DNA of 64,000 nt from Liolophura sinensis (taxonomy: Eukaryota > Mollusca > Polyplacophora > Chitonida > Chitonidae): contig NC_088300.1 in the NCBI RefSeq assembly GCF_032854445.1, positions 6,696,001-6,760,000 of the forward strand, written 5' to 3'. The notes beneath the pieces were generated by a model. It saw only the letters and a list, made by a program, of their open reading frames with translations, searched no databases and was not told the DNA's origin. The translations under genes were made by a program, and so were the position numbers. Below are positions 1 to 59,584 of the stretch, in pieces. Numbering within the stretch: the stretch's first letter is position 1; every line of letters begins with the position of its first letter.

Positions 1-2
1 CA

Positions 3-145
3 ATGGATGTTACTGGCAGTTCAGTCCTTATGGTTGTTAGTGGCCGTTCAGTCAGTATGGTTTGTTAAAGGCAGTTATGATGGATGTTAACGGCAGATCA
101 GCCATAATGGATGTTACTGGCAGTTTAGCCACAATCGATGTAATT
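3..145. repeat. Degenerate 27-bp tandem repeat in POMT2 intron
   Basis: About five imperfect copies of a 27-bp unit resembling atggatgttactggcagttc plus a short variable tail lie directly upstream of the first POMT2 exon in the window. The copies differ by point changes and one short deletion, so the array is old. No coding role is visible. Confidence 0.6.
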
Positions 146-209
146 CACTTATAATCATAATAGTTGTTATTGTTGACGTGTCCTTGACTCAGCAATGTTT
201 ATTTGTCAG

Positions 210-3200
210 ATTACCACATACACACACAAAGATGACAACAACTACTGGATCATTAAGAAGTTTGACGTTGAGCCTACAGAAGAAGACAAACCTGAGTTCG
301 TCACTAATGGAGATTATGTACGACTGGAGCACTTTGCGTAAGTTCTATACAATACTGTGTATACTGTGGTCTTATACCCACTCTTAAACCCGACTGTTAA
401 GTAAGATATAAGCAGGGAGGTTATATGTTCAAATCCAGCTCGTACTGCTTTGGCTACTGCTGTCAGGAGATTTGTCCGTGGTTTCATCTTGTTATGCAGG
501 GTTTCTTCACTCATATACCTGACGACCATCGAACAAGTAAAAATTCTTTTGTCATGCCATTAAACACAATCAGATGAATACATAAATAAATAATAAATAT
601 ATAAATAAATAAGATTTTGCTTTTAGTTAAGTTAATTTATTTATCTTCATCATTTGTAAAGAACAATTGTATTCATGTATTACATGTATTACATGTGGTT
701 TGAGACCACATACTACTAATTCTTCTCATTAACAAATGTATGTCATCAAGGTGTTGTGTGTCTCTTTGTCTGCCTGCCGTCCTGTCTGTCAGTGCTGGTG
801 CTTGTTTCAGAACACGGCGCAACTTACACAGTCACAGAGAGCCAGCTCCTATCACGAAGCGCCACTACCAAGTTTCTGCATACGGTGTTGTAAGTCCATA
901 AATATACATACATGTACAATGGCTGTTCATTGAACAGTAAATGTGACTTTAGTTTATGAAGGCTTTGTGGTGTTTTCCCTCAAAAGTTTATGAAGTGTGG
1001 TTTGATTGTGAAATAATCAAATAATCCTCATATGTTTATCTCCACTCTCAGACAGTCAGCATTTACCCTATTTTCCTATACACCTGCCCTCTCATGTTGT
1101 ATGTGGCAAGGTCTGTCAGCAATCTGCCAAACACTCGTGGGCTTTCCATCGTCCATTTTCCTCCCACCATAAACTGGCTGGTTGTCGTAGAAGTGAAATA
1201 TTATTGATTACGGCATGAAACATCTATCAAATAAGTAGAACCTGTACAGTTGTGTTTCACAATCGTGTTAGAAGGGTAGATTGAATGACACTATACGATT
1301 ATTCAGTGCACCAAAAACTTGTAAAACGAGTTCAGAATGTTGTGTTTCTGACTAAATCAGTGCGAGTTCAGCAGTCTAATCAAGTTACTTACTCAAGTTT
1401 TCCGTGTCCTATGTCGTTTTCAGAATGGTACGGGCGATGCTAATGATGTATGGATAGTTGACATTGTGGGTGCTCCCAAGGGCGCCCCCCTCAAAACTGT
1501 CCGCTCCCGGATACGCCTCATTCACTATCATGTCCGATGTGTTCTTCAGTCCAATGATAAAAAACTGCCAAAATGGTGAGTCATCTAATTGTGCCTGTGC
1601 TAAGTCAGGACCTCTGTTCTGTGAGTCACCTAATTGTGCTTGTGCTGAGTCAGGACCTCTGTTCTGTGAGTCACCTAATTGTGCTTGTGCTAAGTCAGGA
1701 CCTCTGTTCTGTGAGTCACCTAATTGTGCTTGTGCTAAGTCAGGACCTCTGTTCTGTGAGTTCACCTAATTGTGCTTGTGCTAAGTCAGGACCTCTGTTC
1801 TGTGTTGTGTATGTGTATATGTTATTCCATTTTATGAAATGGAAGATGGAACTTTGTACTGCCTATGATATTTGTCACTGGTCATTGCTTAGTACAAAGC
1901 AGATGCATGCTTAGATATGCATGTGGAGAGTTGCATAACAGGTAATATGCAGCCCTTTTGCATAGCACATACACATGTATCTCTTTCAGCCTTAAATCAA
2001 TCATGAAAGGTCACTAGAATTTATTGCCATATTAGCTGATTGTGAAGACAACATATTCAACATGTAAGATGCGTACATTACGAGTAATGTTTTAAACTGT
2101 GGATTTTGTGGCTATCTGGGTCTGTTATGTCTTAAATCCAGACCTGGTCAGGGATATGAAATTTGTTTAAAATGTCACCTTGATTGCAGGGGATTTGAGC
2201 AGATGGAAGTCACGTGCAGTCCTAGCAGCAAAGGGCAGATAACTTACTGGAATATAGAAGAGGTGGTGGATCCAAGATGTAAGACATTTGTGCATGGATG
2301 CCGACTGATGTAGCTCTCAGTATTCATTTAACAGGCTAACATGTTTGTATTCCTTGAGGGAAGAAGATAAATAATCTATGTTATCTGATCAGACTAGGTT
2401 AGCTAAGCTTAATATATCTCTATATCTTACTACTCTGTCAAATTCAGGGAAACTATACGTCGGCTCACTGTTTTGTCCCCAGGATGGAATTAGATCGTGG
2501 TTGGCACAGATGACATTGAATGGAAAGAAACTTTACATGAACAAATTCATGCTTGATATGCTCAGTATTTTGACATTTGTTATGCTATGACCAGGAACCA
2601 TACCCCACACATATTGTGGTGTTAAATATACATACATACATACATACATACATACATACATACATACTGTACATACATACATACATGTACATACATACAT
2701 ACATACATACATACATACATACATACATACATACATACATACATACTGTACATTCTTAACTTTTGGCTTGCCTCAAACTTACCTGTGGAACTAAATAAAA
2801 GAGCGGTGGAAATCCATCCTGCAACATGGAGGCGCATTACATGCACTCTAAGCTCCTTCATCGTCATATGACTGAAAAATTGTTAAGTACAACATTATAG
2901 CCTAAGCACTCACTCACTCACTCACTCACTCACTCACTCACTCACTCACCATTGATGACATGTTATGGCCCACAGTGTGCTGGTTCACTCCAGTTTCCTT
3001 CACCTGTAAATCTGACTCTGGCATATAAGTGAAAAAATTCTTTAGAGAGATGTTGAACATCAGTACAATAAGTATTTGTGGCCTGTCAGCAAACAAAGGT
3101 AATTTTGTTACTTTTTGTTATGCAGTACCTAGTGTAAGTTTCCAGGTGTACAGGCCAAGTTTCCTGGAGAAGTTCATAGAGAGTCACGCTGTCATGTTTC

Positions 3201-11600: not shown

Positions 11601-11960
11601 TAAACGTGTTAACAAAACGCTATAACAAAATCATGGGATAACCAGAGGAATGAGACGCAGTCATATTCAGATAGTATCAAACTAGACCAAAACTTTGTGT
11701 ATAATACAGCTCTACTCCACAGATAACCAATTCCAATAAAACAAAAACTTGGTGAACCAAGTCAAGTTTATACTGAACTCACTAAATCTTTGTCCACATA
11801 TACAAACATTCCTTCTGTCATGATGAGTTAAACCCTTATGAACCACCCAACCCCCTCCCCTTGCAAAAATGCCTAAAAAGAGTGAAAAATAACATATATG
11901 ATAAACATGTGACAAGACGAGCCCACTTTGCTCTACATTTTTCATAATTTGTGCATAAAT

Positions 11961-12103
11961 TTATTTATTTATTTATTTGATTGGTGTTTTATGCCGTACT
12001 CAAGAATATTTCACATATACGACAGTGACCAGCGTTATGGTGGGAGGAAACCAGACAGAACCCAGTGGAAACCCACGACCATCCGCAGGTTGCTGTCAGA
12101 CCT
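11961..12103 (-). mobile_element. tRNA-derived SINE, truncated, with target-site duplication
   Basis: Antisense copy: begins with ttatttatttattt, then 'gattggtgttttatgccgta', 'ggtgggaggaaacc' and 'acccacgaccatccgcaggt'. It is flanked by the perfect 10-bp direct repeat gtgcataaat at 11951-11960 and 12104-12113. The tRNA-like head is missing. Confidence 0.85.
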
Positions 12104-13754: not shown

Positions 13755-22090
<8,336 letters not shown>

Positions 22091-22760
22091 ATTGCTTACG
22101 ATAAACAACAACGAGTCACTTTAGCAGCTCGCAAATTTCCTTTCAAAATCATTGTAAATATTTTCCTTCACTTAGTTTCCCGCAGAGAATATTGAACTGC
22201 CGTTAAACCTTGAAAATAATCACTATTTTAACCTCCAAAATATAAAAGAAAGAATTCCCAGTGGCGCGAACCGTCGATTTCCTCTTTTCGACACCAGTAG
22301 AGGGCGCTAACATTATGTCAAAGGTCAATGTGGTCTGTCAGTGGTTGAATGTCACCTCTGTGCTTGATGGTTTTGTGTTTGATAAACAATGTCATCTGTG
22401 AATTAACTGTGTTTCTCTGACACAATGCAGTCATACGTAAATCTCACTTAGCAATCAACTGGGGAAGTGATCAGCTAGGTGTGTGTCATTTCAAGCTGTT
22501 ATGCAGATTAAACTAAAGTTACAAACATTCAAGCATTTTCTAATAAATCGTCAGAAAACATTTGATGACGATTTATTCATATCTACAAATGACGGGTTTT
22601 AGTCTAGGATGTCTTTTCAGTGACATTGGTCCGTGTTAAAACAAAGCCTTCATGACACCAGAGCGGGATCTAGTTATCTTCTGCTTACCTCCCCTTATCG
22701 GACTGCGGCGATGGCGGCAAACTCAAGTTGTCGGCGCCACGACTGTCAGCTACGTCTAAC
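22091..22760. promoter_or_regulatory. Putative shared promoter region, ZNF839 (-) and MCM8 (+)
   Basis: The ZNF839 start codon is at 22090 on the minus strand. A likely MCM8 leader exon lies to the right, ending at the donor 'gag|gtaagt' (22979). The stretch between is relatively CpG-containing ('ggcgcgaaccgtcgat', 'ctgcggcgatggcggc'). An ATGGCGGC motif at 22711-22718 resembles a YY1 initiator site. Shared promoter use is inferred from layout only. Confidence 0.4.
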
Positions 22761-28000: not shown

Positions 28001-31000
28001 TGGGTTTCCCACCGTGCTCTGCCCTGTTTCCGCACACTGTAATGCTGGTCACTGTCGTATAAGTGAAATATTCCTGAGTACGGTGTAAAATACCAATCAA
28101 AAAAAAAAAAAAAAATAGAAATGAGGGTATATGACCATGCTATGTCTACGTCCGGTTTCATAAACTTATCTGGTTTTCCTTAATGCTATACTTTTGAAGT
28201 GTTTGACTGAAGTTTTATCAAGAAACATTCTATTTTGGGCTAAAAGAAAAAAGACTTAGCAATTGACTGAACTTAGGAATTTTTGTGAAACTATGCCCTA
28301 GTGTTTTCCAGTGAGGTGGCGTTATATGAAAATTATGCCATCATTGGGAACAAATTTCTTACAAGAATACACCATTATGGTATGATTGAAATAAGCAATG
28401 TTAAGCTCCAGTCCAGTAAACAGTATATGCTGATTAACCTTAATTGGACCATCTGTAAAACAGTGATTACTTTAAAACACAGTATCTAAAAACAGATACA
28501 TGTACATGTTGCTGGTTTAACATGTTATATAAGTATTTTTAACCGGACATCACTTTACCATCATTTCATTATGTTGCTATTACAAGTAAAATTCTCAGGC
28601 AAAATTGTGAATATAGATAACACAAACATGTATTGTGGCAGTGTCCAGACAGAAATGCTTTCATTCATATTATATCAGTGTAAGCAGAAAGGGTGAAAGG
28701 AAAATGTGAAAAATGTGTTTGATGTGTATGGAAATCTCTTGAGTTGATAAAATTGGTATCATATTATGTGACAGGTTGTGATGAGCAGTAGACAGCCGAG
28801 GAGAACCAGATGGGAGAGGGCACCCCCGCCCCTAGCCCTGCCTGTCCCCCTACACCTCTCCCCAGAGTACATGCTAGGGTGGTCAAACTATGATCACATT
28901 GTACCACTCAAACACCTCAAAGCTAATTACTATGGTAAGATACAAATTGTGGAGTTCATGCTGTGTGAACCCTGTCATCATGGAAACCAGACAAGTGACC
29001 TCTATTTTAAGCAAATAGCAACTTTTTATGGTGCTTTGATTGCTCCTGTATAACAAGCGATAACCGACAAAGATCAGAATAGTTTTCTTCATTCAGATTT
29101 CCAAAGTTTCTAGAACTCCATTCAATTTAATATTCACCCAGTTCACAGTGGTTCAAGTTGGTTAGTGTGCTAGCGCAGCGTTATGACCCAGGAGCCTCTC
29201 ACCAATGTGGTCGCTGTGAGTTCAAGTCCAGCTCATGCTGCCTTCCTCTCCTGCCGTACGCGGGAAGGTCTGGCAGAAACCTGTGGATGGTTGTGGGTTT
29301 CCGCCGGGCCCTGCCCAGTTTCCTCCCACCATAATGCTGGCCGCCGTTGCATATGTGAAATATTCTTGAATTCGGCGTATAACACCAATCAAATAAATAA
29401 ATAAATTATATTCTGGGGCAGTGTGCATATCTTAGGGGTGGGGTCCAGGACCCATCTAAAAAGGCCTAGCCAGGGGTATGTATATATAGAGAGGGTTCTG
29501 GCCTACTCGTGTAAAAGCCTGAGACCTTGGTCTAAGGGTGCTTATATATACTGATATGCGGGACCGCTGGCCACCCTTAGCCCGAGAGCTATTTGGACCT
29601 GATTCCAGTGTAATTCTTACAAAGAGATACCCACTCGTTCAATTCCGATGCATGCGTGTTAGATTCGTTCTGAGTAAACCGTAAAGCATGGCTATTCTGA
29701 AAGCTGAAATATTTACCCACATTTTGCCACAATCGCTGTTTGCCTTTACATCACCATTCTCCTGTAAATTATAGCCAAAGTCGAAAATATACTCATGGTT
29801 TTAAAATCTGGGTCAGCGAGGCGCGCATGCGCAGCAGCGGTTGACATTTGCGTGAAATTGAATGGAACGGTTGCCGAAAATAACCCCCCTTTTTACTGCA
29901 AACTTAATTGACAGTTCGCACCATCAGTCCGTCATTCTGCTCCATTGCCCTTCAGTCAATTACAAATTTGTGGTCTCTGCAGTCACATAGCTTTTTTGTC
30001 TGTCAAAACTGACAGCCAGCTAATCAAACCATGGTGACGTTGTGAAAGGTCAACCACGTACGCGCGAAGGAATGACCCGATTTGTTAGGTCATGATGTCA
30101 ACACGGCAATGAGCATAAGTCACAACTGTGAGTTATCTTGGATTTACTAGTAGTAAAGGCTACAGAATGTGGAAAAATTTGGCAGAGGAACAGAGAATGT
30201 CTTGCTGAACATACTTTATGGAGTTTTGGTTTCTTACAAGCATAAACTTGGCTCCTGATGTGTAAACAAACTGTCTAGAAGTTGAAAGTAAAACACAAAC
30301 TTAGTAGCTAAAACATCAAGAACGTTTTACCTCGAATCACATGAAGAGCAGGAGTGTTCTTTTTTTAAGAAGTCCATATTTGTAAACTGATTCATGTTTC
30401 AGGTAAGTTTGTGTCGTGAAGGGGACAGTTGTCCGAGTCAGCAATATCAAACCATTGTGCACTAAGCTTGCGTTTGAGTGTAACAGTTGCGGGATTGAGC
30501 AGGTGAGAGTTTTGACAGGTGATAACTTTTGTTAGAGTGTACATATAGTTGTGAAATTATGCATTTAATTATAACTTCAATTATTTAATCATTCTCACTA
30601 AGAGTATGATTAAGTGAAGAAAACCTGGGAAGTAGCTATAGGAACAAATGCAGGTGTTTAATCAGGTTGAATTTAAGCTCAGTCAATCAAAAGTGTTTGT
30701 ACCAGTTGGAGATAAGTGATTTTCAATTACAGCTGTATACTGATTGTAAAGGGATAATTTACCTGAAAGGATCCAGACAAATACAGTCACTCGATCTCTT
30801 CCTGGCCAGGAGGGTGTGTTTCTAGGCTAACTTTTGTTAGGGAAGATTTCTTGTCGCATTGGGCATTACAGGCCAAGCCAAAGATTCAAAATGTAAACTC
30901 ATTTGCTGATGCTTAGCAAGGGTTACAATGTCAAACCTTTAAGGGGATGTTTTTAAAACTCCTTGAACTGTGATCTCCTGAAAAGTGAGCTATGAAAATT

Positions 31001-34000
31001 ATTGCTTTTGATTATATTACCAGTCATTAAAACAAATTGATTCTGGTATATTTCTGAGCAAAAATGTGAAGGTAATGTTTTGTTGTTACAGAGTATAGCT
31101 CTCCCAGATGGGAAGTACACCATGCCAACTGCTGTAAGTTCACTAATATTCAAATTTTCATAAATATTACATGGAAAAAAATTCAAGTTTAGTATGAAGT
31201 GCCAGTTAAGTTGTGGAGATTACGTCTTAGAACCTGAAGGATGTAGATGGATTAACATTTGCTTGGCAGTAAAACTAGTTCAACCATTAGATTTGTCAGA
31301 AGGAAATACTTACCTGTACGAAGACAATCATTGTCCTGTTCATCAAAGCAAATCCATAAACAGATTTCACGAGAAATACTCAGTCAAGACAATTTAGTAT
31401 TGAACTTTCAACAAACTCAATTCACAAAGTAAACTTTGTGTATAAAGTTTACAGGATGGCTCCTCTGTTATTAAGAATGTTATTTGATTTATGTTATTCT
31501 TATGTTCGTTGTTGTTGGTGTGTGCTTTTGTGTTGACAGTGTCCGAATACCGAATGTCGAGGGAGGACATTCACCCCTAAACGGGGGCTCTGGCCTCACA
31601 CAAACTATTGACTGGCAAACTATCAGGTAAAAGTATGGTGGATCTAGTTTTCTGGAAAGATTCCCCCTATGACATCTTGTATAAAATGTGTAACACTCGA
31701 GAATCACACTGAAAATTATATTGAGAAAGACAGTATGTAGAGCTTCCCATTTTTTATATCGGCTATTATAAGATCACAACCTAGCCATTTGTAAAACTGG
31801 AAAATGACACATTTGAGTACAGATTGCATCAATGGCTAGTATTAATATGTGTAGAAACTGGAATAGGTAGTTACAAAAAACATACATAATTTTCCTGCTG
31901 TGATCAGAAAAGTCCCATAAAAAAAATTGTCTCTGTCAGGAATAGTAAGCTTATGTTGTGAGTGTGTGCTTGGCTGCCTGACACCTGTGCTTGTGATATA
32001 ACTGACAGAGTTCAGGAGGTGATGGGAGATGAACAGAAGGAGGCAGGACGCATCCCCAGGACTGTTGACTGTGAACTGACGGAGGATCTAGGTGAGGTCA
32101 GGGTGGGATTAACATATCAACCGTTGTCTCTCTGTCAGGGCCCTCTTTCACAGAGAAATTGCATCTACAATTCCTTTGAAACCCTACAGTTGAGTTTACA
32201 ATTGATTGTAAAAAATAAGTTGCACCGCTTTCTCATGGGAATTGTAAGGTGATGTGTGAAACGTAAATGTACATTTTTGAAGTTACAATGATGATCATAG
32301 GCCAAATACGTCTCTTTCATGAAGATGGCCTGTGTGTACCGGCCAGAACATTTCTTGCCTTCATTTTCAAAAGAGTTCTACATCATAATGATTTAGCATC
32401 TAACAACATGTCAAGAAAGGCATATTTTTGAAACATTTCACATTTTCAACCAAGTCCAAAATTACTGATGGTCTACCTAAGGCAAGTATTTGTACTGAAC
32501 ATTAATTTTGGGAGTTTGTGAACATTTACGACTGGGTCCACCTGATTGTAATTTCTGATTGTAATTTCTGATTTTAACTTCTGTTACTCACCTTTTTTGT
32601 CTTTTAGTTGACAGCTGTGTCCCTGGGACGTGGTGGTTGTGTCAGGAGGGGTCAAGGTCAACAGTACGGATGAGGGTAAGTATATGGTGTGGTATTGGGG
32701 GTCAGGGTCAACAATACAGATTAGGGTAAGAATATAGTGTAGTATTAAGGGTCAAGGTCATCAACACAGATGAGAGTAAGTATATGTGTGTATGTGTGTA
32801 TCCATGAGGTTTAACATTGTATTCATCAATTTTTTTATGAATATGACGTTGAGGAGTGATTAGGTGTGTGTACAAATACTGTGTCTCCCTGTGGCAGGGC
32901 AAGTCCATCCCACCAAAATTCTGCCAACACTGAGGTTTCATGCCGAAGACACCAGACAGGACACCTGATCCAGTCACATTGCACTGGCATGCATTGAGCC
33001 AGTGAGTCCTGTTTTCATACTGGTATTTTTTTTACCAGTATGAAAACTTTTTGATGTATTTTGTATTGTTGATTTCAGGCCGAAGCAGGAACAAAGATAA
33101 GTGTATGTTTCTTCTGTACATACACGCCAATTCTGTGAGCAACACTAAGGGAGGTAAAAAGTGTGCTGAGGGTCAGAGTTCAGGGGTTACCATGGAGTTC
33201 TCCATGAAGGAACTCTATGCTGTAGAAGAGATTCACAGTCAGAAGAATCTGTTTAGGCTTTTAGTTGGGTAAGTTATTCTTATTGTGTGTTTGAAGTGCT
33301 GCTTTCATAAATCCCATTATCACATGACCTGTGGTCACTAATTCAACCTGGCCCTGCCCCTGTCAGCAAAACTTTTACGAACATGGTGTGATATATTTAG
33401 CTGGGTGGTGTCATTTCCTCTACTCATTTTCACCACCCCTAAACTTGTTTTTGTCATTTGAGTGAAAAGTATGTAATCCTAAATATGGAATAAAAGACCA
33501 CGGAATGAAATTAGTTTGAACTAAAAATATTTTGTTACATTTTAAACTTATGTCTTCCACTGTTCTGGGAATTGGCACTTGTACTTTTCCCTTGTTAGGA
33601 ATTTCTCTGAAAAAGATAAGCAAAAAGCAAAAATGAAACTTTTTTTTTTTCTCCACCAATCACAGTATCATTTTGTCACCAAGGAGAAACTAGGTTGTTT
33701 AACATATTATCCAATGTGTTTCACTACATGTTTTCGAAAAAGTATGAAACATAACCCATTTTTGTTAAATTGGGGTTCTTCCTGAAGTTATTAAAATGTA
33801 CTTCTCTTTATTATAGTATTCAGATATGTTTTTTATTGAAGTACGTAAAACATATGTGTCCCGTATTTTGCTTTGTTAGTCATAGTATACTTTTTTGCCT
33901 ATATTGTTAAACAATTTAAAACCAGCATACTTTTATCCCATCCAAAAATTATTTTTTCTTTTGTTAGTTTATCTTTTAATCCGCCTTTAGTTTTGATCCA

Positions 34001-37000: not shown

Positions 37001-40000
37001 ATCATACAGTAATACTGATTACATTATCATTGTAAACTGCAGTATGTTGTGCCATGCATAAATGTTTTGAAGAACAGAGAAATATGCATGCAGGGAGCAT
37101 TGCAGACAAGGTCTGACCTGTTGTTACAGTTCTGTTGTATTTTTGAGTCAGTTTTAGGAAACTTACAGATCAAGTCAGATAAAATGGGTATGCTTTGAAA
37201 AAGGATCACAAAGCTTGTTTTATTTTGTGGCTTTAATATAGAAAATTCAGTAGAAGAAATACGCCTAATTTTATTCAACATCAAATTCAGCTCCTTTTTA
37301 AATCTTGCCTCGAATGTCTTTTAAAGATAGGTTACAAAAGGGAATTGGATATATATTGGCTCTGGAGATACAGAAATTTCTCCACTGTTTCAGTTATGAA
37401 TATCAAACACAAGTGTCATTCAGTTGTGTGTCTCATATGTCTTGTTTTGTAATTCAGGAGCAGCAAAGTATCAGTATTGCCAAGGCTGGGATAGTTTGCA
37501 GGTGAAGTATGGAAAAGTCATTCCTGTTGTACAGGCCTTTGTTCAGACATTTTGTAGTAATCAAGACAACTGCGGCTCTCTTATCTCTGGTAGTGTTTGT
37601 GTACTATCTGTTTCAGACATACAAGGGGGAATAATAATAATTGTTGTTTGGACATATGAATGATTTTCTTGTTTTTTTCTTTGTTTTTTTTTTTTTTCCA
37701 AATGTGTATTTTATACACTGTTCTGCTAGTTTGCTAACAAACTTTGCACCTGTTTTGGATGTGGTGTTGTAGAACCTTATACTGGATGAGGCAGTCATCA
37801 CTGTTGATGGCAGCTTTGGAAAATTCAGTTATATATTACGTTTCTGTTTTTCGTGAATTCCTAAGAGGGTGATTCGTTTGTGTTTTCTGAATGGCTCATT
37901 ACATCTCTGTCATGTTTTATTTTACGTATACATAACAGACATACAATCAAGTTTGAAAATGATTTTAAAGTTGTGAGGAAATGACTGTATTGATGTGTAC
38001 AGTTATATGCTGATATGTACAGGTACATGCTGATGTTGATGCACTCATGTTTACTTTCATGATTACAGTTTACCTGCACGGACATCAATCCTAGCAGCAG
38101 CCAACCCAGTGGGAGGTCATTACAACAAGTCTAAAACTGTCTCTGAGAACCTCAGGTCAGCTGTTTTACTTCTGTCTTCTTCTAATGTACTCTAATTGAT
38201 AATTTAAAAAAGTTTAGGGAGTTCCTCTCTACAAGTTCAGGTAGAATTTAAATTTTTTCCACCAGTGAAATCTTACGGTTTTATTGCCAGCTCTGTTTGA
38301 TAAACCTGTAACTGTGTGGGAAAATATTGCTGCCAGAAACATGGAGAATAAACCAGAGTCATAATGTAGAGTTGTTGGTCATCATTACAGTGTTGATGCA
38401 GAGGATTTCTCTGCCTTGAAGTGTCACTTGCAAATATACAGGTAGCCAGTAAAACACACCAATCTTAGTTCTAATGGTTTTACTATATACTCACTCAAAG
38501 TTTTGTCAACTGATATCGTATCAGATTGAGTGGCCTAGGTGGCCGAGGTGGTTAGCTCTCCAGCCATACGTGGGAAGGTCTGTCTGCAGCCTGCAGATGG
38601 TCATGGGTTTCCTTCGGGTTCTGCCTCCCACCCCTGTTTCCTCCCACCATAATGCTCACCGCTGTCACAGAAGTGAAATATTAAGTGCTTCAGTAACACC
38701 AATCAAATGAATCGTATGAGATTGATGCAATAGATGTTAAAATGATACTTGATATAAATATTAAGTATAAATATTATGATTTGGCGATATTGTTGGTTTG
38801 ACTTTGAAGTACCTGGTTTTGATGATTGACAGGATGGGAAGTGCCCTTCTCTCCAGGTTTGATCTTGTCTTCATCCTCGTGGACAAACCAGATGAGGTAA
38901 GACTGGCAGACGGGTGGGGAGCAGGCTTGACATAAAAGACATCTCCAGCACAAGAAAAATACTCACTCATACCATATCTTTATAGGCAATATCAGCATTA
39001 GGTTGCCGTTTGGAATTTGTACTGGTTCTCTGCAATCAGTCATACTACTGTTTTGCATCAGTCCTGATACCACAAATTAAACACTGTTGACATTGGGTAA
39101 AGTGTTTGATAAATCATGGTATTTAAAAGGTGAGAATAGAACGTGCATTATGTAAAAGAAATAGCTGTAGTAGTTGTGTGCATGTTTGCTGCATGTGTTG
39201 TTGAATTATTTAACAGTACATGTACATCGTGGGGCTCGTGAGAATATTGATTGTCTCAACACAGTATCAGGCTGTATAACCAGGCAACATGTTCGTGTAA
39301 CTTATAATGTAAATAGAGGGAAAAACCGCCTGAACAGATGTACTGTGGTTTGCATGATATAAAAGGGTTACTGTATGTCATCTAAAGCTTGGTATGTGAA
39401 AATGCACTTTGAGGAGCACAAAGTGATGCATTTGATGATGACATGTACAATATTAATGATACTGTGAAGTACTTAATTTTCACATGGGACAAATTTTCAC
39501 GGATCTCGCGGTCAATAATTTACCCCGAAAAATAATTTCAGCGAAAAAATATCCAATATTGAATCATATACTACAGGTAGTAGTAATAATGAAGTGAAAT
39601 CTTTGTCAGGGTGACGGGAGTTGCACTGAGAAACCCCGTAAGGGCCAGCTAAGTTTTTAAACAGCAGGGAAGGGAAATTATGGTTTAAATATATACAAAC
39701 TCTGGTGCTAAGGCTTGGTGGATATAAAACAAAGTGGGGGTTTTATTTGTCTTTAGTTTGATCAGTCTTCGCTATGCCCGTAAAGTGAAAGAAAATTAGA
39801 TACTAGCATGTGCTGGCTTCTAATGAATGTTGTTCTGATACACGCTGTGCCATTGGCTGTCTCTCTCCTGTGGTCCAATGAGTGAACTTCTAACAAACTG
39901 TGAAGTGTGTACACCACCACAATGGCCGTTTGACAGCTACGGCAATGATTGCTATTTCTGACCTGCTACTGAGGACGATTAAAACCGAAAACAATGCAAA

Positions 40001-43000: not shown

Positions 43001-46000
43001 GTGAGAACGGCAGTGAGAGCCTATTAAATAAATAAGTACATTCTAATCCCTTTCCTTTAATTTGGATTTTATAGTATAAAATGTAGGCAACAGCTAGGGG
43101 ATCTCAAGAAAGTATGGAAAAAAAATTGTATTGGATGAATCACAGTGATTCTCCAGGTCACAGAGGTCAGTGCTGCGGAAGTATTTATAATTATCCAAGT
43201 GAAGGAAATTATTCACTGAAATCGATTCATAAAGACTGAGGTTATCAATGGATCCATTGATGGAGTTAAAAAAGCTCTGCTTCATACATTTGGTCGCAGG
43301 ATTTCTACCTGAAGTTGCGTAAGCAGCACAGCTCTGACTGCACACCAATCACGACGCGTCAGCTGGAGTCCCTGATCCGACTGACAGAGGCCCGCGCCCG
43401 CCTGGAGCTGAGGGAAGAGGCAACAGAAAACGATGCTGCTGATGTCATCCAGATTATGAAGTTCAGGTGAGTGAGGTACTGGTATTCACGGTGTACAATA
43501 CCAGTACGGAATCTTAGAAAAGGATGTGATGTACAGGAAAATGTTTGAATGGCTAACATATAACCATAGATTTTACATGTATATATAGTTACTCTAAGTG
43601 GTTTCCTTCACCCTGAGACATGCGTCAGAAGAATTTTGAGTGAGGCCAAATATAACAGTCAAAGAAATAAATCAAAGTGTTACGTTTATAGGTAGGCAGT
43701 TGTGGTGCATGATTTTCATAGTTTGCCTGCTTTCTTCCAGTATGAGGGACACATTTTCTGACGAGTTTGGTTGGATGGATTTCCAGCGGTCTCAGCATGG
43801 CTCAGGGATGAGTGGCAGGGCTCAGGTAGATATATATATATACACATCATTAATCAGTCATACTGCTAGGGACTTCAGCATAAAGTGTTGAGACATGTCA
43901 ATGTAAATGAAAAGCCTGTAATAGAGAAATGTTGCCGTATGAGGTTAAAGGGCAGCTTAACTGGTGTCAGTTTCCGTTTATGTGAAGTACATTTTGAGAA
44001 TTGACACGTGAAGTAGAAAAAAGTGGATTTACAGTGGATGATTGTGAGATAGCTACTTGAAGCAGCTTGCTTATTTTTCAGATTTTAAGTGTTGATAAGA
44101 GACCACCCACCCTTTGTTTACCAAATGCTAATTTGGCTGTGTACATGTCGCAGAACAGATCAAACATTGTTGTATTTCCTGTTTCAGCCGAAGAAGTTTG
44201 TGGCAGCATTACAGAGGGTCAGTGAGCAGACCTATAACTCCATCTTCACTGTGGAGCAGATGAAACAAATAGCTATGGTAAGTATAGCTGGCTTCACAGT
44301 ATTACTATATAGAAAACATCAATATGATTATGTGAGCAGACCTATAACTCCATCCTCACCGTGGAGCAGATGAAACAAATAGCTATGGTAAGTACAGCTG
44401 ACTTCACAGTATTACAATATAGAAAACATCAATATGATTATGTGAGCAGACCTATAACTCCATCCTCACCGTGGAGCAGATGAAACAAATAGCTATGGTA
44501 AGTACAGCTGGCTTCACAGTATTACAATATAGAAAACATCAATGTGAGTAAGTGAGCAGACCTATAACTCCATCCTCACCGTGGAGCAGATGAAACAAAT
44601 AGCTATGGTAAGTACAGCTGGCTTCACAGTATTACAATATAGAAAACATCAATATGATTATGTGAGCAGACCTATAACTCCATCCTCACCGTGGAGCAGA
44701 TGAAACAAATAGCTATGGTAAGTACAGCTGGCTTCACAGTATTACAATATAGAAAACATCAGTGTGAGTACATGAGCAGACCTATAACTCTATCTTCACT
44801 GTGGAGCAGATGAAACAAATAGCTATGGTAAGCACAGCTGACTTCACAGTATTACAATATAGAAAACATCAATGTGAGCAGACCTATAACTCCATCTTCA
44901 TTCTGGGGCAGATGAAACAAATAGCTAAGGTAAGTACAGCTGACTTCACAGTATTACAATATAGAAAACATCAATGTGAGTAAGTGAGCAGACCTATAAC
45001 CCCATCTTCACTGTGGAGCAGATGAAACAAATAGCTATGGTAAGTACAGCTGGCTTCACAGTATTACTATATAGAAAACATGTGTGAGTACATGAGCAGA
45101 CCTATAACCCCATCTCCACTGTGGAGCAGATGAAACAAATAGCTAAGGTAAGCACAGCTGACTTCACAGTATTACAATATAGAAAACATCAATATGATTA
45201 TGTGAGCAGACCTATAACTCCATCTTCACTGTGGAGCAGATGAAACAAATAGCTATGGTAAGTACAGCTGACTTCACAGCATTACTATATAGAAAACATC
45301 AATATGATTATGTGAGCAGACCTATAACTCCATCTTCACTGTGGAGCAGATGAAACAAATAGCTATGGTAAGTACAGCTGGCTTCACAGTATTACAATAT
45401 AGAAAACATCAATGTGAGTAAGTGAGCAGACCTATAACCCCATCTTCACTGTGGAGCAGATGAAACAAATAGCTATGGTAAGTACAGCTGGCTTCACAGT
45501 ATTACTATATAGAAAACATCAATATGATTATGTGAGCAGACCTATAACTCCATCTTCACCGTGGAGCAGATGAAACAAATAGCTATGGTAAGTACAGCTG
45601 ACTTCACAGTATTACAATATAGAAAACATCAATATGATTATGTGAGCAGACCTATAACTCCATCCTCACCGTGGAGCAGATGAAACAAATAGCTATGGTA
45701 AGTACAGCTGGCTTCACAGTATTACAATATAGAAAACATCAATATGATTATGTGAGCAGACCTATAACTCCATCCTCACCGTGGAGCAGATGAAACAAAT
45801 AGCTATGGTAAGTATAGCTGGCTTCACAGTATTACTATATAGAAAACATCAATATGATTATGTGAGCAGACCTATAACTCCATCTTCACTGTGGAGCAGA
45901 TGAAACAAATAGCTATGGTAAGTACAGCTGGCTTCACAGTATTACAATATAGAAAACATCAGTGTGAGTACATGAGCAGACCTATAACTCCATCTTCACT

Positions 46001-49000
46001 GTGGAGCAGATGAAACAAATAGCTATGGTAAGTACAGCTGGCTTCACAGTATTACTATATAGAAAACATCAATATGATTATGTGAGCAGACCTATAACTC
46101 CATCTTCACTGTGGAGCAGATGAAACAAATAGCTATGGTAAGCACAGCTGACTTCACAGTATTACAATATAGAAAACATCAATGTGAGTAAGTGAGCAGA
46201 CCTATAACTCCATCTTCACCGTGGAGCAGATGAAACAAATAGCTATGGTAAGTACAGCTGGCTTCACAGTATTACAATATAGAAAACATCAATATGAGTA
46301 AGTGAGCAGACCTATAACTCCATCTTCACTGTGGAGCAGATGAAACAAATAGCTATGGTAAGTACAGCTGACTTCACAGCATTACTATATAGAAAACATC
46401 AATATGATTATGTGAGCAGACCTATAACTCCATCTTCACTGTGGAGCAGATGAAACAAATAGCTAAGGTAAGCACAGCTGACTTCACAGTATTACAATAT
46501 AGAAAACATCAATGTGAGTAAGTGAGCAGACCTATAACTCCATCTTCACTGTGGAGCAGATGAAACAAATAGCTATGGTAAGTACAGCTGACTTCACAGT
46601 ATTACAATATAGAAAACATCAATGTGAGTAAGTGAGCAGACCTATAACTCCATCTTCACTGTGGAGCAGATGAAACAAATAGCTAAGGTAAGTACAGCTG
46701 GCTTCACAGTATTACAATATAGAAAACATCAATGTGAGTACATGAGCAGACCTATAACCCCATCTTCACTGTGGAGCAGATGAAACAAATAGCTATGGTA
46801 AGTACAGCTGACTTCACAGCATTACAATATAGAAAACATCAATGTGAGTAAGTGAGCAGACCTATAACTCCATCTTCACTGTGGAGCAGATGAAACAAAT
46901 AGCTAAGGTAAGTACAGCTGGCTTCACAGTATTACTATATAGAAAACATCAATGTGAGTAAGTGAGCAGACCTATAACTCCATCTTCACTGTGGAGCAGA
47001 TGAAACAAATAGCTAAGGTAAGTACAGCTGGCTTCACAGTATTACTATATAGAAAACATCAATATGATTATGTGAGCAGACCTATAACTCCATCTTCACT
47101 GTGGAGCAGATGAAACAAATAGCTATGGTAAGTACAGCTGGCTTCACAGTATTACAATATAGAAAACATCAATGTGAGTAAGTGAGCAGACCTATAACTC
47201 CATCTTCACTGTGGAGCAGATGAAACAAATAGCTATGGTAAGCACAGCTGACTTCACAGTATTACAATATAGAAAACATCAATGTGAGTAAGTGAGCAGA
47301 CCTATAACTCCATCTTCACTGTGGAGCAGATGAAACAAATAGCTAAGGTAAGCACAGCTGACTTCACAGTATTACAATATAGAAAACATCAATGTGAGTA
47401 AGTGAGCAGACCTATAACTCCATCTTCACTGTGGAGCAGATGAAACAAATAGCTATGGTAAGTACAGCTGACTTCACAGTATTACAATATAGAAAACATC
47501 AATGTGAGTAAGTGAGCAGACCTATAACTCCATCTTCACTGTGGAGCAGATGAAACAAATAGCTAAGGTAAGTACAGCTGGCTTCACAGTATTACAATAT
47601 AGAAAACATCAATGTGAGTACATGAGCAGACCTATAACCCCATCTTCACTGTGGAGCAGATGAAACAAATAGCTATGATAAGTACAGCTGACTTCACAGC
47701 ATTACAATATAGAAAACATCAATGTGAGTAAGTGAGCAGACCTATAACTCCATCTTCACTGTGGAGCAGATGAAACAAATAGCTAAGGTAAGTACAGCTG
47801 GCTTCACAGTATTACTATATAGAAAACATCAATGTGAGTAAGTGAGCAGACCTATAACTCCATCTTCACTGTGGAGCAGATGAAACAAATAGCTAAGGTA
47901 AGTACAGCTGGCTTCACAGTATTACTATATAGAAAACATCAATATGATTATGTGAGCAGACCTATAACTCCATCCTCACCGTGGAGCAGATGAAACAAAT
48001 AGCTATGGTAAGTACAGCTGACTTCACAGTATTACAATATAGAAAACATCAATGTGAGTAAGTGAGCAGACCTATAACTCCATCTTCACTGTGGAGCAGA
48101 TGAAACAAATAGCTATGGTAAGCACAGCTGACTTCACAGTATTACAATATAGAAAACATCAATGTGAGTAAGTGAGCAGACCTATAACTCCATCTTCACC
48201 GTGGAGCAGATGAAACAAATAGCTAAGGTAAGCACAGCTGATTTCACAGTATTACAATATAGAAAACATCAATGTGAGTAAGTGAGCAGACCTATAACTC
48301 CATCTTCACTGTGGAGCAGATGAAACAAATAGCTATGGTAAGTACAGCTGACTTCACAGTATTACAATATAGAAAACATCAATATGAGTACATGTATGTG
48401 CTTGTAATGTTTTATCAGTGATGTGAAGGTACAGTGTACCCTCATTATTCAACCTTTCTAACTGCCTCTGCAACCAGTGTTTGGAAACATTCTGAGAGAA
48501 CTATGGGTTGTAGAGAAATACTTTGCATAGTATTATGAAGCTTGTGTTTTTGATGACACAAACAGATCATTTTTAGCATAATTGTCATAATAATTGTATG
48601 CATAAATTGCACTGAAAGAATTGCTTTAGTGGCTGAAAAGGGTGAAGAAAAACAACGTATTCTTCAAAGTGTAATAATAATGACCACTATCTATATTATA
48701 ATAAATAATGTACATGTAGTATGGCACATTGTATATAAGTGATAAACTGGGACGCGTAATGTCATACTGTAAAGCAGTATTGTGTACAGTAATGAGACTG
48801 CTCTGGTCAGCCTCTGCATAGTGTATTCTCTGACTTGATATCTTTTCTCATACTTCTTCAGATAAACTTCTTTTGAAGTCTCTGCTGTTATTTTATTTAC
48901 AGGAAATGGGTTTACGAGTTACAGACTTTGAAGGGTTGATTTTGTCACTGAATAATCAGGGCTATCTACTGAAGAAAGGTCCCAAGGTGTACCAGCTGCA

Positions 49001-51138: not shown

Positions 51139-54100
51139 ATGGCTGCTGTAAAAGTATGTCAAGGGACCTTGTAATTTACGTTTTATGGCGATTTAAAAAG
51201 CTGTGTACATTATTTTCTGTGTCATAATACATTAATCTGAGGTACCACACTGACTGACAGGCGCATGTACCAATGTCAAAGGAAAGCACGAATGTTTACC
51301 TAACTGTCACATGCGCTACAACAACAACGTTAACAGTAACACTTCACTTTGCGCAAATTAGTCCCTAGTTTGGGCGCACGGTAGTGGTTTTTGGGCTTAT
51401 TAGAGAACATTTAATAGGACCTGAAGGGAGTTTATTTATTACCTGTGTATTGTTCGCCTAAGTAAGGGTGGGTGGTTTATGGAATAACCCGAGATAATAT
51501 GACCTGAAGCTATCTTGTACGGTCTTCATGTGACCTACTTGCACTCCGTGTGAAGTAACATGATCACTTTCAGCTGGTCCCTCATTGAACATGGTCAAAA
51601 ATACGTGTAGGTTGAACAACTACCGGTACTGCTGATTTAGTAAGAAAATATGTTCTTTGATTAGAGGGTCGGTGGTCCCCTGAGCCATGAAGTAGTAGTG
51701 CGTGGGGAGTACATGTTTGAGGATTCATGTACATTATACTGTATGACACATGAACACATCATTTAAATCAGTCAAACTTCAGGATTGAACATCATTATAA
51801 TGGGTAATAAAATATTGTTATTTAAGGGTTTAACACCTTCATCTGGGTGTTTGTTATGTAACTCGATACCGCTAAACTTTGTTTTGTACCAAGTCTTTTT
51901 TACAGCATTTAAGGGATTTGACTCGGTATGAAATAAGGCTCAGATATATCTGGTTACACAACAAACACCAAGATGAAGGTGCTAAATTCTATTCTACCCC
52001 AAAAACTGAAGAAAATGTGCCAAAAACGGCATATTTCATGCAGTTGTTACTTTTCACTCCCTATGTAGAGGTCCTGTATTTTAGACCAATCAGTGGTAAG
52101 CTTAGGCCACTGCTGTTGACCTAGGGTGCTTATGATTAAACAGAATCACCGGTGTCTCCAGCCTGCCTGAGCCATTCGTGTGACGTTATTGTAACGTGAT
52201 TGATCCTCATCAGCTAGACCACCAGGATTTCTGTATAGTCGTAAAAACCTCTAAATATTTCAAAGATCCGTATATAAGATGTGTTTTTTTGTTGCGTGAT
52301 GTAAAAGTATACTGTAGATGTATTATGATGTCATGACACTGAGCTCAGTTTGAAATGTCATGAAACAAATGTTTCTCTTTCCATGTCATGGCATCTGCAT
52401 ATAAAATATCAAAGATGTAAAACAACAAAGGCGATATCTATAAGTTGTGCGAAATAACACTTTTTATCACTAAGAGAAATTCCAATAGTTCAGCTTCATG
52501 TAAATGATAAAAGGAAGTCTAACAAGTAAACAAACTCCAGTTCTTATGTTTGTAGAAATAAACAGCTTGGGATGATATTATTTGGGGAGGTAAACGTACT
52601 GGTTGGTTTGTTGCGTGACACACTTGATGGTGTTTGAAATGTCATCTCTATTATTATTTATATTTGCACACGGCTTGCAACTTACAGCAGGACAGAAATA
52701 CACACCTTTAGGTCAACGTTTAATTCGTCATAAGTAATAAAGAATGAGAAACAATTATTTATGGCCCTAATTAAATGTTGCTTATAAATATTTTGTTTTC
52801 AATTTCAGCCTGTCCTTTATTCGTATTACCGTAGCTCATGTGCATGGCGAGTCAGAATTGGTGAGTTGTGACAGGTATCTTCACTGATCACATATATGAT
52901 CTGTTTCGTTATATTGTTGTCACAAGAGGGCAAAAAATCTGTTTTGTGATCCCAGTTTAGCTATCTTTTTTTCCATGGGGAACCAATAATCTAATTTGTG
53001 TTAAAAGTACATCTGGTAGGAAATCCAGACTAATTTCAGTTGCGGAGTTTTATGTGAACCACTCTAATTACTGCAAATAACAATATCTAATTGATTCAGA
53101 TGTCTTAATTATAAGAGACCATGCTGTAGGAATGTATTGCCACTTCTACGGTGTTAATAATATACACCTGTTCTGTATCTATTACAGCCCTTGCACTAAA
53201 GGGAATAGACTATGAGTATGTTCCGGTACATTTGGTCAAGGATGGAGGACAGCAGGTAATTATGATTGAGCTATTTTAGTGCAAGAAATTACAGAAAAGC
53301 TTAATAGTGTAACACATGGCTGTTGAGGGGCCCTGGACAGCTGGTGGCCGGTGCTGGATGTCCAGAAGCCCTGGACTTTGCAGGTTCATATACACCTTCT
53401 GTTGGTTTGGGTTGCAATCTACTTTCCCAAGGGTTGTGCCCAGTTCCTCTTGTAATAATGTTGGTCGCCATCATATAAGTGAAATATTCTTGACTACAGC
53501 GTAAAGCACCTGTCAAATAAATAAATGTGCACAAACTTGTTTAAGGCACCTGTCTGATGAGGTGTAGCAGTGATTCCCCTAAGCTCTATCTGGCTTCTGT
53601 CAGCCATATTCCTAGCGCCTACCATGTAAAGCATGGAACACGAATCAGCTAATAACCTGTATGTGGGAAGGTATGTGAGCAACCTGCGGATGGTCGTGGG
53701 TTTCCTCCTGGCTCTGCTCGGCTTCCTCCCACCATGATGCTGGCTGCCGTCATAAAAGTGAAATATTCTTGAGTATGGTGTAAAACACAAATCAAATAAA
53801 TATATAAATAATAAACATACAACTGTAGAGAATAAGTTCATTTGAATTTGAAATTCTACATAAACATGTGTACTACATTTTAATGTCAACAAAACAGAGA
53901 TACATTTATGCAGATGTTCATCTATACATATTGGGGTTGCTTATGAAATGGATACTGAGTGTTGTGGTTGTTGCCAAACTGTTGTTGAGCCCTTCCACTG
54001 CCATGGAAAAGCTCTTCATGGACATACTATGTGGTAGATATGTATATGTGTGTTTGCAGCACAAGGAGGATTACAAGACCATGAACCCCATGGCTCAGGT

Positions 54101-57100
54101 GCCCACCCTGCTCATTGATGGCCTCACCCTGACCCAGTCCGTGAGTCACCTTGTTCCTCATTTCTTATAATTGGTTACATCCCATTAATGGAAATCTGCA
54201 CGTGATCTGACAGTGCTGCCTCTATGGCCGTATGTGGGAAGGCCTACCAACAAACTGCCGATTGTCATGGGTTTCCCTCTTGCTCTGCATGGTTTCCTCT
54301 TACCATAATGCTGGCTGCCGTTGTACAAGTGAAATATTGTTTACGGAGTAAAACTCTATTCAAATGAATAGATACTGGTAAATAATGCTTGAGCGTATAT
54401 CCATCCTGTGTCTGAAACGGGTTGAAAAAGTGATCCTGGATAGGGCTTGATTGAGGATAAAAGTTAGGGCACCCTGTAAGTTGTTCCAGCATTGACTTTT
54501 ATTTGAATAAGCACTTTTTCACTCCGGCTAAAGCCAGTTTGAGACAATAATGTTACATAAATTACCTGCTCATGAAACCTTTAAAAGACAAGACAGCACC
54601 TGGCTAGGATACTCAGACTTTCAAGTATTATAGTACAAAATGTCAATACTATATCCAAATGGCTAGTGTGAGTTAAGGCAGCCATCTTGAGAATTTTATT
54701 CAATTAAACACGTTGTTGTCCGATTGCGCCGCCCAAGCTGTGACGTAGCCTTTAACCGTGAAGTGACCTATGATAACACAGAACGACTGTATAAGATATC
54801 AATTTGAGATAGTGTACAATGATTTAATGACATGTAGCCAAAGGGCCATTTCACAAAGTGTTGTGGGGCAGGTCTGTATCATTTCACCACAGACATAAAA
54901 TCAGTTGATTTACAAGCTGTGTAATATCAGCGTCAGTGCAATACTCATTAGAGATGCTGAACTAAGGTTTATGAGGATGAGAAGACGGCATCTCATCAGA
55001 CAACACTTACAAGTATTTAAATCTTATGATACAATTTTTTTCTCTGAAATTATTACAAATGAAGAATTAAAATTTTGTTCCTTCCTCTTTCTAGCATACA
55101 AGTGATGTTTTTTTCTGTTTTCTTTCATTAAGTGCAGTAAAATAATTTTAACGCTGTGTTCAAGCCAAAGTACTTTATCTGACGTCCGGTATAACTAGGT
55201 CAGCACTGTAATTTAATAAACATTTACTTGGGGTAAAAATCACCAGGACAAACCCTCTGAAGGCAGACCACTCAATATTCTCCACTTTTTCCAGATTGCA
55301 ATAATTGAATATTTGGATGAGACCCGGCCATCTCCACCTCTCTTGCCCTCTGACCCCAAGGACAAAGTCAAGGTTGGTATGGCTGATATCCTATTATTTA
55401 ATGTTTCTTGCATACTCTGTTGTGGAAGTGATCAACAGTTAAATCTACAGGCTTGTCATTTACGTGTAGCTAGCAGGCTGTAAGGGCTTTCATCAGCTTT
55501 TATCCAGTTTCTCCACTCATAAACCGGACTGAAGTCAAGCGAGTGAAATGTTCTTACGTATAACATAAAACATGTGAGGATTTTTATTTATTTGTGTACA
55601 TTTTCTCTCCCAAGAAAATGATTTGTTTGGAAGATAACATGTGTCCCTCTGGAAAAATGAGTTTCTGCAACAAATGTACTCCATGACCTTTATTTACCTC
55701 TTAAAATGGATTTTTGTCCAGCAAATTTTGAGGGCAGGCACAGTACCTCATTTATAATCAGCATGTTACGCTCTGTAATCTTCAGGTGAGAATGATTGCA
55801 GAGACAATAGCCTCAGGAATTCAGCCATTGCAGAACCTCGCTGTCCTCCTCCAGCTAGACGAGGACAAACGCCCAGCCTGGGGGAACCGCTGTATTGACA
55901 CAGGATTCCAGGGTACTTTGTTCTCCCAGACCTGTTCACATTACATACTTTCTGGTCATAAGTCTTTAACTAATGTTGTTTTATGAAAAACCATAGTACT
56001 GATGATTATGTTAATTACATGAGACCACTCTTACAGGGATTTGTGATGGGGATTCCCTTGCAACCACTTCAGTGTTGCGTCCCCAGTGAAGTAAAAACTT
56101 AATATGTCTTGCTGGCTAACTCTGGAGAAAAAAAAGCTTTATGAGATTTGTCAGATACCTGGTGGAGAGCAGTGGGTTTCCCCTGGCTTTTGGTTCATCC
56201 ACCCATGAACCAGATTGTCGTGATTTTGGGGGAAAAGTGTTTCCTGCAGGGTTTCGCAGGTTTCCTTCCACCAGCGTGGATAAATTGTATACATGTACAT
56301 ATAAATAAATCTGTGTTTCCAGTGAGTGTTTCCATCGGTGTTTTCTTCATAGAGCCCTTTCATAGGGTTTTAATGGATTCTCAACACCTCACCACAACCT
56401 GGCTAATATAGTGCCATTGTGGCATTAAACCTGTTATTCATTCATTCTTAAGGATACCAACAGTAGCTTTTATGAATTGAATTGTCTGCTACCCATGGAA
56501 ACTTGTGTACTTGCTGAATATCAAAATCTTCCCTGCGAGATGGGACTACAGGAAAATATTTTCTAGAACATGTTTAAGTGGCTTGTTTTCTCATCAGACC
56601 AGAGTGGAATTCAAAGATTAAGAGTGACAACATGTGCCTTGGTTCATTTATTAGAACTTTGAAACTTTTATCATAATTATGCATACTAAGGAATCTTGAG
56701 ACATTTGAGGCATTTTGTGCCTAATTGCTTGATGTATTCTTGGGTATGGCATGAAACACCAGTCAAATAAATAAATAAATTTTGCCTGATGTTGTGTTTC
56801 TGTTGTCTCAACAACACTAGTCAATCACTGTCTGTTCTGTTCACAGCTGTGGAGGCCATGCTATCTCAGACAGCAGAGAAGTACAGTTACGGAAATTCCC
56901 TCACTGTTGCAGATCTCTGCCTGGTTCCTCAAGTCTACAATGCTAACAGGTTAGTTATCTTTCCTTGTGAATGGTCTCTCATGTGTATTGATAAATTCAT
57001 ACTGCAATAATTAGTTGATGAATGGATTTCTAGGTTAAAATTTACGCTTGGTATGGCCACTTTTAATTGTTGTCTTCTTGATTGTTAGTAATTTTTGCAT

Positions 57101-57638
57101 TTACTTTGAGCCTGGATCAATATTATGCTGTGTATTAGTGTTTTGTTTGCCATATTTATCTGATACATTTAGTAACATGTACATAGTACTGATGCCAGAA
57201 CACTTTTTGCCATCAATATTGCATACAAAATTAAGCTCACACTACAAGTGAAACTGTGTGACCGTGGGAAAGTTTGTCAGTTACTTGCCAAAAGTCGGTG
57301 GTTTACTCAGGGACCATAACTAACCACTGACAGAGGTGAAATATTCTTAGGCAGTGTTAAAAACCAATCCAGCAAATACATTGGATTGTCAATAAATTTG
57401 ATGTTGGTACATGTGCTTTGGTTAGTTGCCATACGTAATCTCTGCAGTCCGGATGGCTTTTTTGTCAGCAGTATGTCATACTTACATCCATTCTGTGGGT
57501 TGTCTGTTTGATAGGTTCAAAGTGGATATGTCCAAATTTCCGACCATTTCTCGTGTTCATGATGAACTGGCCAAACTGGAAGCATTTAAGAAAGCTCATC
57601 CTAGCCAGCAACCTGACTGTCCCGATGACCAGAAGTGA
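51139..57638 (+). CDS. GSTZ1: Glutathione S-transferase zeta / maleylacetoacetate isomerase
   Basis: Glutathione-dependent isomerisation of maleylacetoacetate to fumarylacetoacetate in tyrosine breakdown; the family also dechlorinates dichloroacetate. Exons: 51139-51153, 52809-52860, 53188-53255, 54060-54140, 55295-55372, 55786-55912, 56847-56949, 57515-57638. All are in phase and give 215 residues plus TGA, against 216 in human. The zeta-class active-site motif SSCAWRVRIAL lies at residues 14-24. The thioredoxin-like domain continues with NPMAQVPTLLIDG, TLTQSIAIIEYLDE; the helical domain has GIQPLQNLAVL and LTVADLCLVPQVYNA. Start MAAVK chosen by homology; an in-frame ATG at 51073 could add 22 residues (see findings). 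Lies 2.1 kb downstream of MCM8 on the same strand. No defects seen. Confidence 0.96.
51154..52808. other. GSTZ1 intron 1
   Basis: About 1.65 kb of single-copy AT-rich sequence. I see no nested gene, tandem array or clear mobile element. Confidence 0.55.
53316..53526 (+). mobile_element. Diverged SINE copy
   Basis: GSTZ1 intron 3. The second half is clear: 'tgcccagttcctcttgtaat', 'aatgttggtcgccatcatat', 'gaaatattcttgactacagc', 'tgtcaaataaataaat'. The head is poorly preserved. Confidence 0.65.
53640..53812 (+). mobile_element. SINE copy, head missing
   Basis: GSTZ1 intron 3, second copy: 'tatgtgggaaggtatgtgag', 'cggatggtcgtgggtttcct', 'cctcccaccatgatgctggc', 'gaaatattcttgagtatggt' and an aaatcaaataaatatataaa tail. 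Confidence 0.75.
54205..54372 (+). mobile_element. SINE copy, degraded
   Basis: GSTZ1 intron 4: 'tatgtgggaaggcctaccaa', 'gattgtcatgggtttccctc', 'ccataatgctggctgccgtt', 'gtgaaatattg' and 'attcaaatgaata'. Confidence 0.7.
55450..55572 (+). repeat. Very degraded SINE-like sequence
   Basis: GSTZ1 intron 5: 'tttctccactcataaaccgg', 'gcgagtgaaatgttcttacg' and 'tataacataaaac' follow the SINE order loosely. Confidence 0.4.
56710..56780 (+). repeat. SINE tail fragment
   Basis: 'gtattcttgggtatggcatg', then aaacaccagtcaaataaata, in GSTZ1 intron 6. Only the 3' end of the element is present. Confidence 0.6.
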
Positions 57639-57899
57639 ATTCTAGTATTATATCATGTATGAATTTGTATTAATCGGAGGACTTATAATTTCTGAACTGG
57701 TTGTGGTTGTAATTCGTTTCTAGCATACAGTGGTGTTTTCAGTGAAGGCTATTACTACCTGGGAATTGAACAATTTAATACAGCCTTGAACTCTAAACAC
57801 ATCTTTATGTTATTTTACAGTCAATAAGAACTCACATTTAAGTTTTGGCAGAATTTCTTGGACTGTATTATTGGACTGCATTTGTCATTTTGTAAAAGT

Positions 57900-59334: not shown

Positions 59335-59584
59335 TTTATTTATTTATTTATTTGATTGGTGTTTTACGCCGTACTCAAGAATATCTCAGTTATACGACGG
59401 CGGCCAGCATTATGGTGGGAGGAAACCCACAACCATCCACAGGTTGCTAACAGACCTTCCCACTTACGTCCGGAGAGGAAGCCAGCATGAGCTGGACTTG
59501 AACTCACAGCAACCGCATTGGTGAGAGGCTTCTGGGTCATTATGCTGTGCTAGCGCACTAACCGACTAAGCCACGGAGGCCCCC
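59335..59584 (-). mobile_element. Full-length tRNA-derived SINE with target-site duplication
   Basis: Best copy in the window. Antisense order: (ttta)n tail, 'gattggtgttttacgccgta', 'cggcggccagcattatggtg', 'ggaggaaacccacaaccatc', 'gacttgaactcacagc' (B-box complement), then 'gcgcactaaccgactaagcc' (A-box complement) and 'acggaggcccc'. Flanked by taattactatga (59323-59334) and taattattatga (59585-59596). Confidence 0.92.

Follow-up and report, generated by a model that had tools for sequence, protein, structure and literature searches.

We have identified, in a 64,000-nucleotide (nt) window of the genome of the chiton Liolophura sinensis (NCBI RefSeq assembly GCF_032854445.1, contig NC_088300.1, positions 6,696,001 to 6,760,000 of the forward strand), an array of 38 tandem units that copies the exon-intron joint at the start of the last intron of MCM8. 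Tandem repeats across exon-intron boundaries are termed 'mirages', a name given to them in amphioxus Adh3 and applied to its globins in the available text of PMC3087553. We think it likely that the MCM8 array is a minisatellite of this mirage type, formed by boundary-spanning tandem duplication, that the first donor is the one used, and that the array most probably has no function. Positions below are counted from the first letter of the window, and features are collected in Table 1.

The array was recovered in two ways that agree, which bears out the first-pass annotation's description of an exon-derived tandem array at an MCM8 exon-intron joint. Tandem Repeats Finder (TRF) reported a period of 110 with 38.0 copies and 95% matches at 44221-48390, and splitting on a common word, with the end of the last unit set to 110 bp by hand, delimited 38 units (36 of 110 bp, unit 6 of 102 and unit 8 of 108). 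Each unit spans the boundary, combining the exon's terminal 54 bases (by eye, no more than 57) with about 56 intron bases; the exonic part had been described as 56 bases of MCM8 exon 27, and while the assignment to an MCM8 exon stands, its length is 54 (at most 57) and the exon is the penultimate coding one. Searching 609,464,459 bases in 632 contigs with the unit, using a tool that scores best candidates only, gave 19 matches, all within C6:6740222-6744388. Thus, among the best candidates scored, nothing beyond this locus supports the suggested alternative of an unrelated satellite that also occurs elsewhere.

The host gene occupies about 26 kb to 49.0 kb of the window on the plus strand, based on exon-by-exon comparison with human MCM8; the 5'-most exons match weakly and not all boundaries are certain. 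PDB chains of MCM8 match the gene stretches tested, with the best match (8e-23) for the winged-helix domain of the array-bearing exon, for which three of the six PDB matches listed are MCM8 and three are designed repeat proteins. Pfam names WHD_MCM8 (1.5e-26) and additionally the MCM P-loop domain, and a genome search with the winged-helix domain returned two matches, both at this locus and corresponding to its two exons. Splicing from the authentic donor (44277/44278) to the acceptor (48902/48903) gives a protein tail that matches the PDB MCM8 chains. By arithmetic, the last intron without its 37 extra units would measure about 565 nt, and the median of the 17 modelled MCM8 introns is 567 (range 200-4625 nt). 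The exon's final codon (44275-44277) is ATG (Met), as against Lys in the PDB MCM8 chains, and AAG (Lys) stands at this place in 11 of the 38 units; the array may retain an older Lys codon, or conversion may have altered the exon.

Table 1. Features of the MCM8 array, its host gene and two further donor-associated arrays (window positions; a slash marks the exon-intron joint)
Feature	Position	Strand	Details
Penultimate MCM8 coding exon	44188..44277	+	90 nt, phase 0; its 3'-terminal 54-57 bases recur as the exonic part of each unit
Array of 38 tandem units	44224..48393	+	each a 54-nt exon copy, donor and ~56-nt intron copy
Authentic donor ATG/GTAAGT	44275..44283	+	
Last MCM8 intron	44278..48902	+	4625 nt, of which ~4.06 kb are extra units (arithmetic)
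First in-frame stop when authentic donor is skipped	44371..44373	+	
Higher-order duplication, 880 bp apart (8 units)	46412..47974	+	46412-47094 equals 47292-47974 except one base
Unit 32 donor, GT to AT (ATG/ATAAGT), sole loss	47675..47683	+	one mismatch between two repeated blocks
Last MCM8 coding exon, includes stop codon	48903..49016	+	
Smaller second array, 50 bp x 2.9, across the donor of another MCM8 exon	32647..32792	+	donors after 32675, 32725 and 32775
Third array, 45 bp x 5.1	1576..1804	+	begins at donor of MIR-domain exon (boundary by eye)

The units are densely furnished with donors. GT is retained in 37 of the 38 units and 36 of the 37 extra ones, in agreement with the earlier statement that all but one extra copy keep it; the exception is unit 32 (47624). 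At the joints we found ATG/GTAAGT in 22 units, AAG/GTAAGT in seven, ATG/GTAAGC in four, AAG/GTAAGC in four and ATG/ATAAGT in one. Scored with generic splice-site matrices and a generic U1 5'-end sequence rather than with models trained on chitons, 37 joint donors reach at least 8.8 bits within 4.17 kb, compared with 40 sites of at least 8.7 bits in the other 59.8 kb of the plus strand. The donor density of the array is not due to chance, and the proposal that the copies are decoy donors is supported. The count of about 38 tandem 5' splice sites holds for the joints, with 37 intact donors, but the total is higher, as a second site type (AAT/GTGAGT) is present in 19 copies near the unit joints; at 8.8 bits these are on a par with the weakest of the intact main donors, and they pair less strongly with U1 (-6.9 to -7.1). 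Predicted U1 pairing of the authentic donor is -11.0, a value equalled by one other unit and exceeded by the seven AAG/GTAAGT decoys (-12.0). Thus, strength cannot select the authentic donor, and position would have to decide donor choice instead.

If the first donor is passed over, the reading frame runs into a stop ahead of every one of the 37 donors that follow, which upholds the claim that only the first preserves the protein. The first-pass annotation further suggested that the array could affect MCM8 dosage through mis-splicing and nonsense decay, which usually follows a rule of 50-55 nt between the stop and the last junction. With donor 2 this distance is 14 nt, and with donors 3 to 6 it ranges over 124-454 nt; as the array lies in the last intron, the donor 2 product would escape this rule. 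Decay is therefore expected for most decoys (donor 3 onward), and not clearly for donor 2.

The similarity of the units is explained by recent multi-unit duplication, and their mean identity of 94.75% together with a duplicated block shows concerted evolution. The 38 units comprise 28 distinct sequences. Neighbours never match exactly (0 of 37), but exact matches do occur eight units apart (lag 8; 6 of 30 pairs) and ten units apart (lag 10; 3 of 28). The duplicated block measures 683 bp, and its single mismatch is the G-to-A change that abolishes the unit 32 donor; as the sole difference between the blocks, this loss is most simply younger than their duplication. The lag-8 identities and the duplicated block favour the earlier suspicion of recent homogenisation, while the accompanying claim of strongly conserved donors is not supported, because the donor is more variable than most of the unit. 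Diversity is 0.091 in the donor 9-mer; it is lower in the exonic half (0.030) and across most of the intronic half (0.048) and rises to 0.172 in the last 8 columns. Of 102 9-mer windows, counting the donor's own, 92 have a diversity at or below that of the donor.

Selection on the donors was considered and rejected in view of this diversity, of the retention of dinucleotides in general (82 of 109 persist in 37 or all 38 units) and of the neutral-looking coding variants of the exon half (seven nonsynonymous and two synonymous, with an expected nonsynonymous fraction of 0.775). With the donor unprotected and variants falling as expected without constraint, the most plausible reading is that the copies are neutral and homogenised. 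Identity is 0.945 and 0.952 for units 1 and 38 at the edges, and the inner units 6-9 diverge most (0.887-0.933).

These patterns bear on a regulatory role for the array, in which decoys would divert MCM8 transcripts into truncated or decaying forms and copy number would tune the MCM8 level. The near-complete retention of GT, the seven decoys with stronger predicted U1 pairing than that of the authentic donor and the stop met on every decoy path are all compatible with such a role. However, donor positions are no more conserved than the rest of the unit, and amphioxus arrays reportedly leave splicing undisturbed: the available text of PMC3087553 suggests from Adh3 data and globin reverse-transcription PCR that regular splicing is unaffected, though many units keep AG/GT, and that of PMC3902484 says the same of Adh and TnC. 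We therefore regard regulation by decoys as unlikely.

In the neutral mirage-type reading that we prefer, a single duplication would have fused intron sequence to exon sequence some 54 bases short of the donor. The array would then have been expanded and homogenised by unequal exchange or conversion, on at least one occasion through a block displaced by 8 units. The extra units would be intronic, with the one upstream acceptor (44188) and the nearest donor (44278) paired by exon definition. Exon 44188-44277 would be spliced to 48903 and the 37 units downstream removed with the intron, whereas wrong donors would give truncated MCM8, subject to decay from donor 3 onward. We infer use of the first donor from the sequence and this positional logic. 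The locus offers a natural experiment on donor choice, with dozens of near-identical donors in one intron, the first alone productive and some decoys stronger; which donor wins is answerable by RNA-seq of five tissues from the same chiton project.

Several observations weigh against this reading. In splicing assays the donor closest to the acceptor often wins, and this would point to late decoys; the lack of function is argued from neutrality within one array. The MCM8 exon at 32604-32677 shows a one-base frame change relative to PDB MCM8 and human MCM8, near a short G run, with LVDSCVPG in one frame and the remainder in another. This may reflect a sequencing or assembly error or a broken allele in this haplotype, and if MCM8 is broken or misassembled, the protein-based argument for donor 1 would weaken. 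Finally, we found no general link between minisatellites and donors in 20 stretches of 10 kb from C1, C2, C3 and C6 (200 kb), in which arrays with a period of at least 18 were counted. The sample holds 74 arrays, with about 16% of sequence in tandem repeats, and the donor motif GTRAGY was rarer than expected, occurring in 2 of the 74 units as compared with a shuffle mean of 7.3 (2% of shuffles were as low) and 8.3 expected from non-array density.

Donor capture is thus no general habit of this genome. The sampled part has many minisatellites, and some of them take in exon ends by chance, with no sign that they are drawn to donors in general. Within the window, the units of 5 of the 10 arrays listed carry GTRAGY, and two further arrays involve donors (Table 1): one lies in MCM8, and in the other, GTGAGT starts all five full copies. 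Three of the 10 arrays in the two gene spans touch a donor, as against 0.56 expected (P ~0.011). This excess is weak, as spans and donors were picked post hoc, rows with a period below 13 or overlapping others were excluded, and 8 of the 29 donor positions are one or two bases off. A further array (4132-6094, 68 bp x 28.9) apparently lies in an intron of the MIR-domain gene, away from exon boundaries as far as seen.

The exon copies could also be nascent exons, in which weak acceptors would create in-frame mini-exons (for example of 18 nt, phase 0) that add short peptide repeats. The first-pass annotation saw no evident acceptor in any copy, and this is true of the joints, where the AG of GAGCAG has a median acceptor score of -6.1 (best -3.7), and of the intron half, where AGs at unit positions 64, 76 and 89 have medians of -6.0, -3.2 and -2.5. 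The exon copy differs in having, before ATGAAACAA, an AG that weakly resembles an acceptor (median of -0.1 over the 37 scored, with 1.1 as the best), towards the low end of the 21 modelled MCM8 acceptors (-4.5 to 5.6, some uncertain). Intron gain from mirages has also been proposed, according to the available part of the globin paper (PMC3087553). Nevertheless, a score of -0.1 is reached by 372 of 3490 AGs elsewhere on the plus strand of the window, the implied introns of about 92 nt (by arithmetic) compare with 200 nt for the shortest of the 17 modelled ones, and the unit variants look neutral. Exons of 18 nt are seldom used, and we consider nascent exons the least probable of the alternatives.

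A more speculative role, which we hold to be quite improbable, is that the more than 50 strong donor-like sites form a landing strip for the U1 small nuclear ribonucleoprotein that affects MCM8 RNA, as a shield against early polyadenylation or through a copy-number effect on level, with exon copies converting their variants into the exon.

The real copy number could instead be one or few, as the first-pass annotation allowed in raising assembly expansion. The available text of PMC11068029, in which the species name L. japonica was later corrected to L. sinensis, describes GCA_032854445.1 as built from PacBio high-fidelity (HiFi) reads with a mean of 8,347 bp at 14x, giving 632 scaffolds and 609,495,693 bases. 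That coverage, together with the frame change in another MCM8 exon, leaves some room for an artefact. Against this, the mean read length exceeds the 4.17-kb array, so reads can span it, and the 38 units include 28 distinct sequences and no identical neighbours. The suggestion is weakened accordingly, and we view an assembly origin as very doubtful.

The array resembles the amphioxus mirages of Adh3, BflGb6, BflGb9 and TnC, as far as the available texts describe them, in being a boundary-spanning minisatellite (here 54 + ~56 nt) with many intact splice signals (GT in 37 of 38 units) and high similarity between units. It differs in lying in a mollusc, in its 38 units and in its position at a 5' splice site; the hosts in those texts are all cephalochordates, although the host is not part of the structure. 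The accessible part of PMC3087553 gives BflGb6 6 and 3 units in two haplotypes, with repeats at the 3' end of the intron, and places cluster edges of the globins outside concerted evolution, whereas the inner units diverge most in MCM8. Lancelet PGBD5 repeats are imperfect, with a similar period and copy numbers that vary between assemblies (60 bp x 2 or 7; 108 bp x 3 or 6), and their first copies abut 5' splice sites, as does the array at 1576-1804 (PMC3902484, available text). In the intron gain by tandem genomic duplication of Rogers, judging by the available portion, a splice signal is likewise duplicated, but no new intron is evident in MCM8.

We found no report of a molluscan mirage in the open-licence literature (titles and abstract beginnings of the listed matches), no open-licence literature combining MCM8, amphioxus and tandem repeats, and nothing closer in the titles and abstract beginnings of work on donor competition and variable number tandem repeats. 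The phylum, the array length and the two further donor-abutting arrays are new, while the kind itself is known from amphioxus. As exon-boundary minisatellites occur in a mollusc as well as in amphioxus, no chordate-specific cause is needed.

MCM8 is flanked in the window by the MIR-domain gene (1-8000), which we take to be POMT-like, and by a gene with a GST C-terminal domain (53900-57640; both by Pfam), presumably zeta-like. Human POMT2 and GSTZ1 are neighbours, which suggests that the flanking pair is an old linkage. Rfam and tRNA scans of the whole window gave no match. Additionally, a dispersed repeat, apparently of one kind, occurs on both strands (1157-1237, 11954-12103, 28003-28113, 29156-29415, 38549-38613, 53444-53811 and 59338-59567); the arms of the inverted pairs compared are 78-91% complementary, and the 62-amino-acid reading taken from one copy matches nothing in Pfam. 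Between the MIR-domain gene and MCM8, a long minus-strand reading frame (20879-22117) matches Pfam DUF4764 at 5.5e-08.

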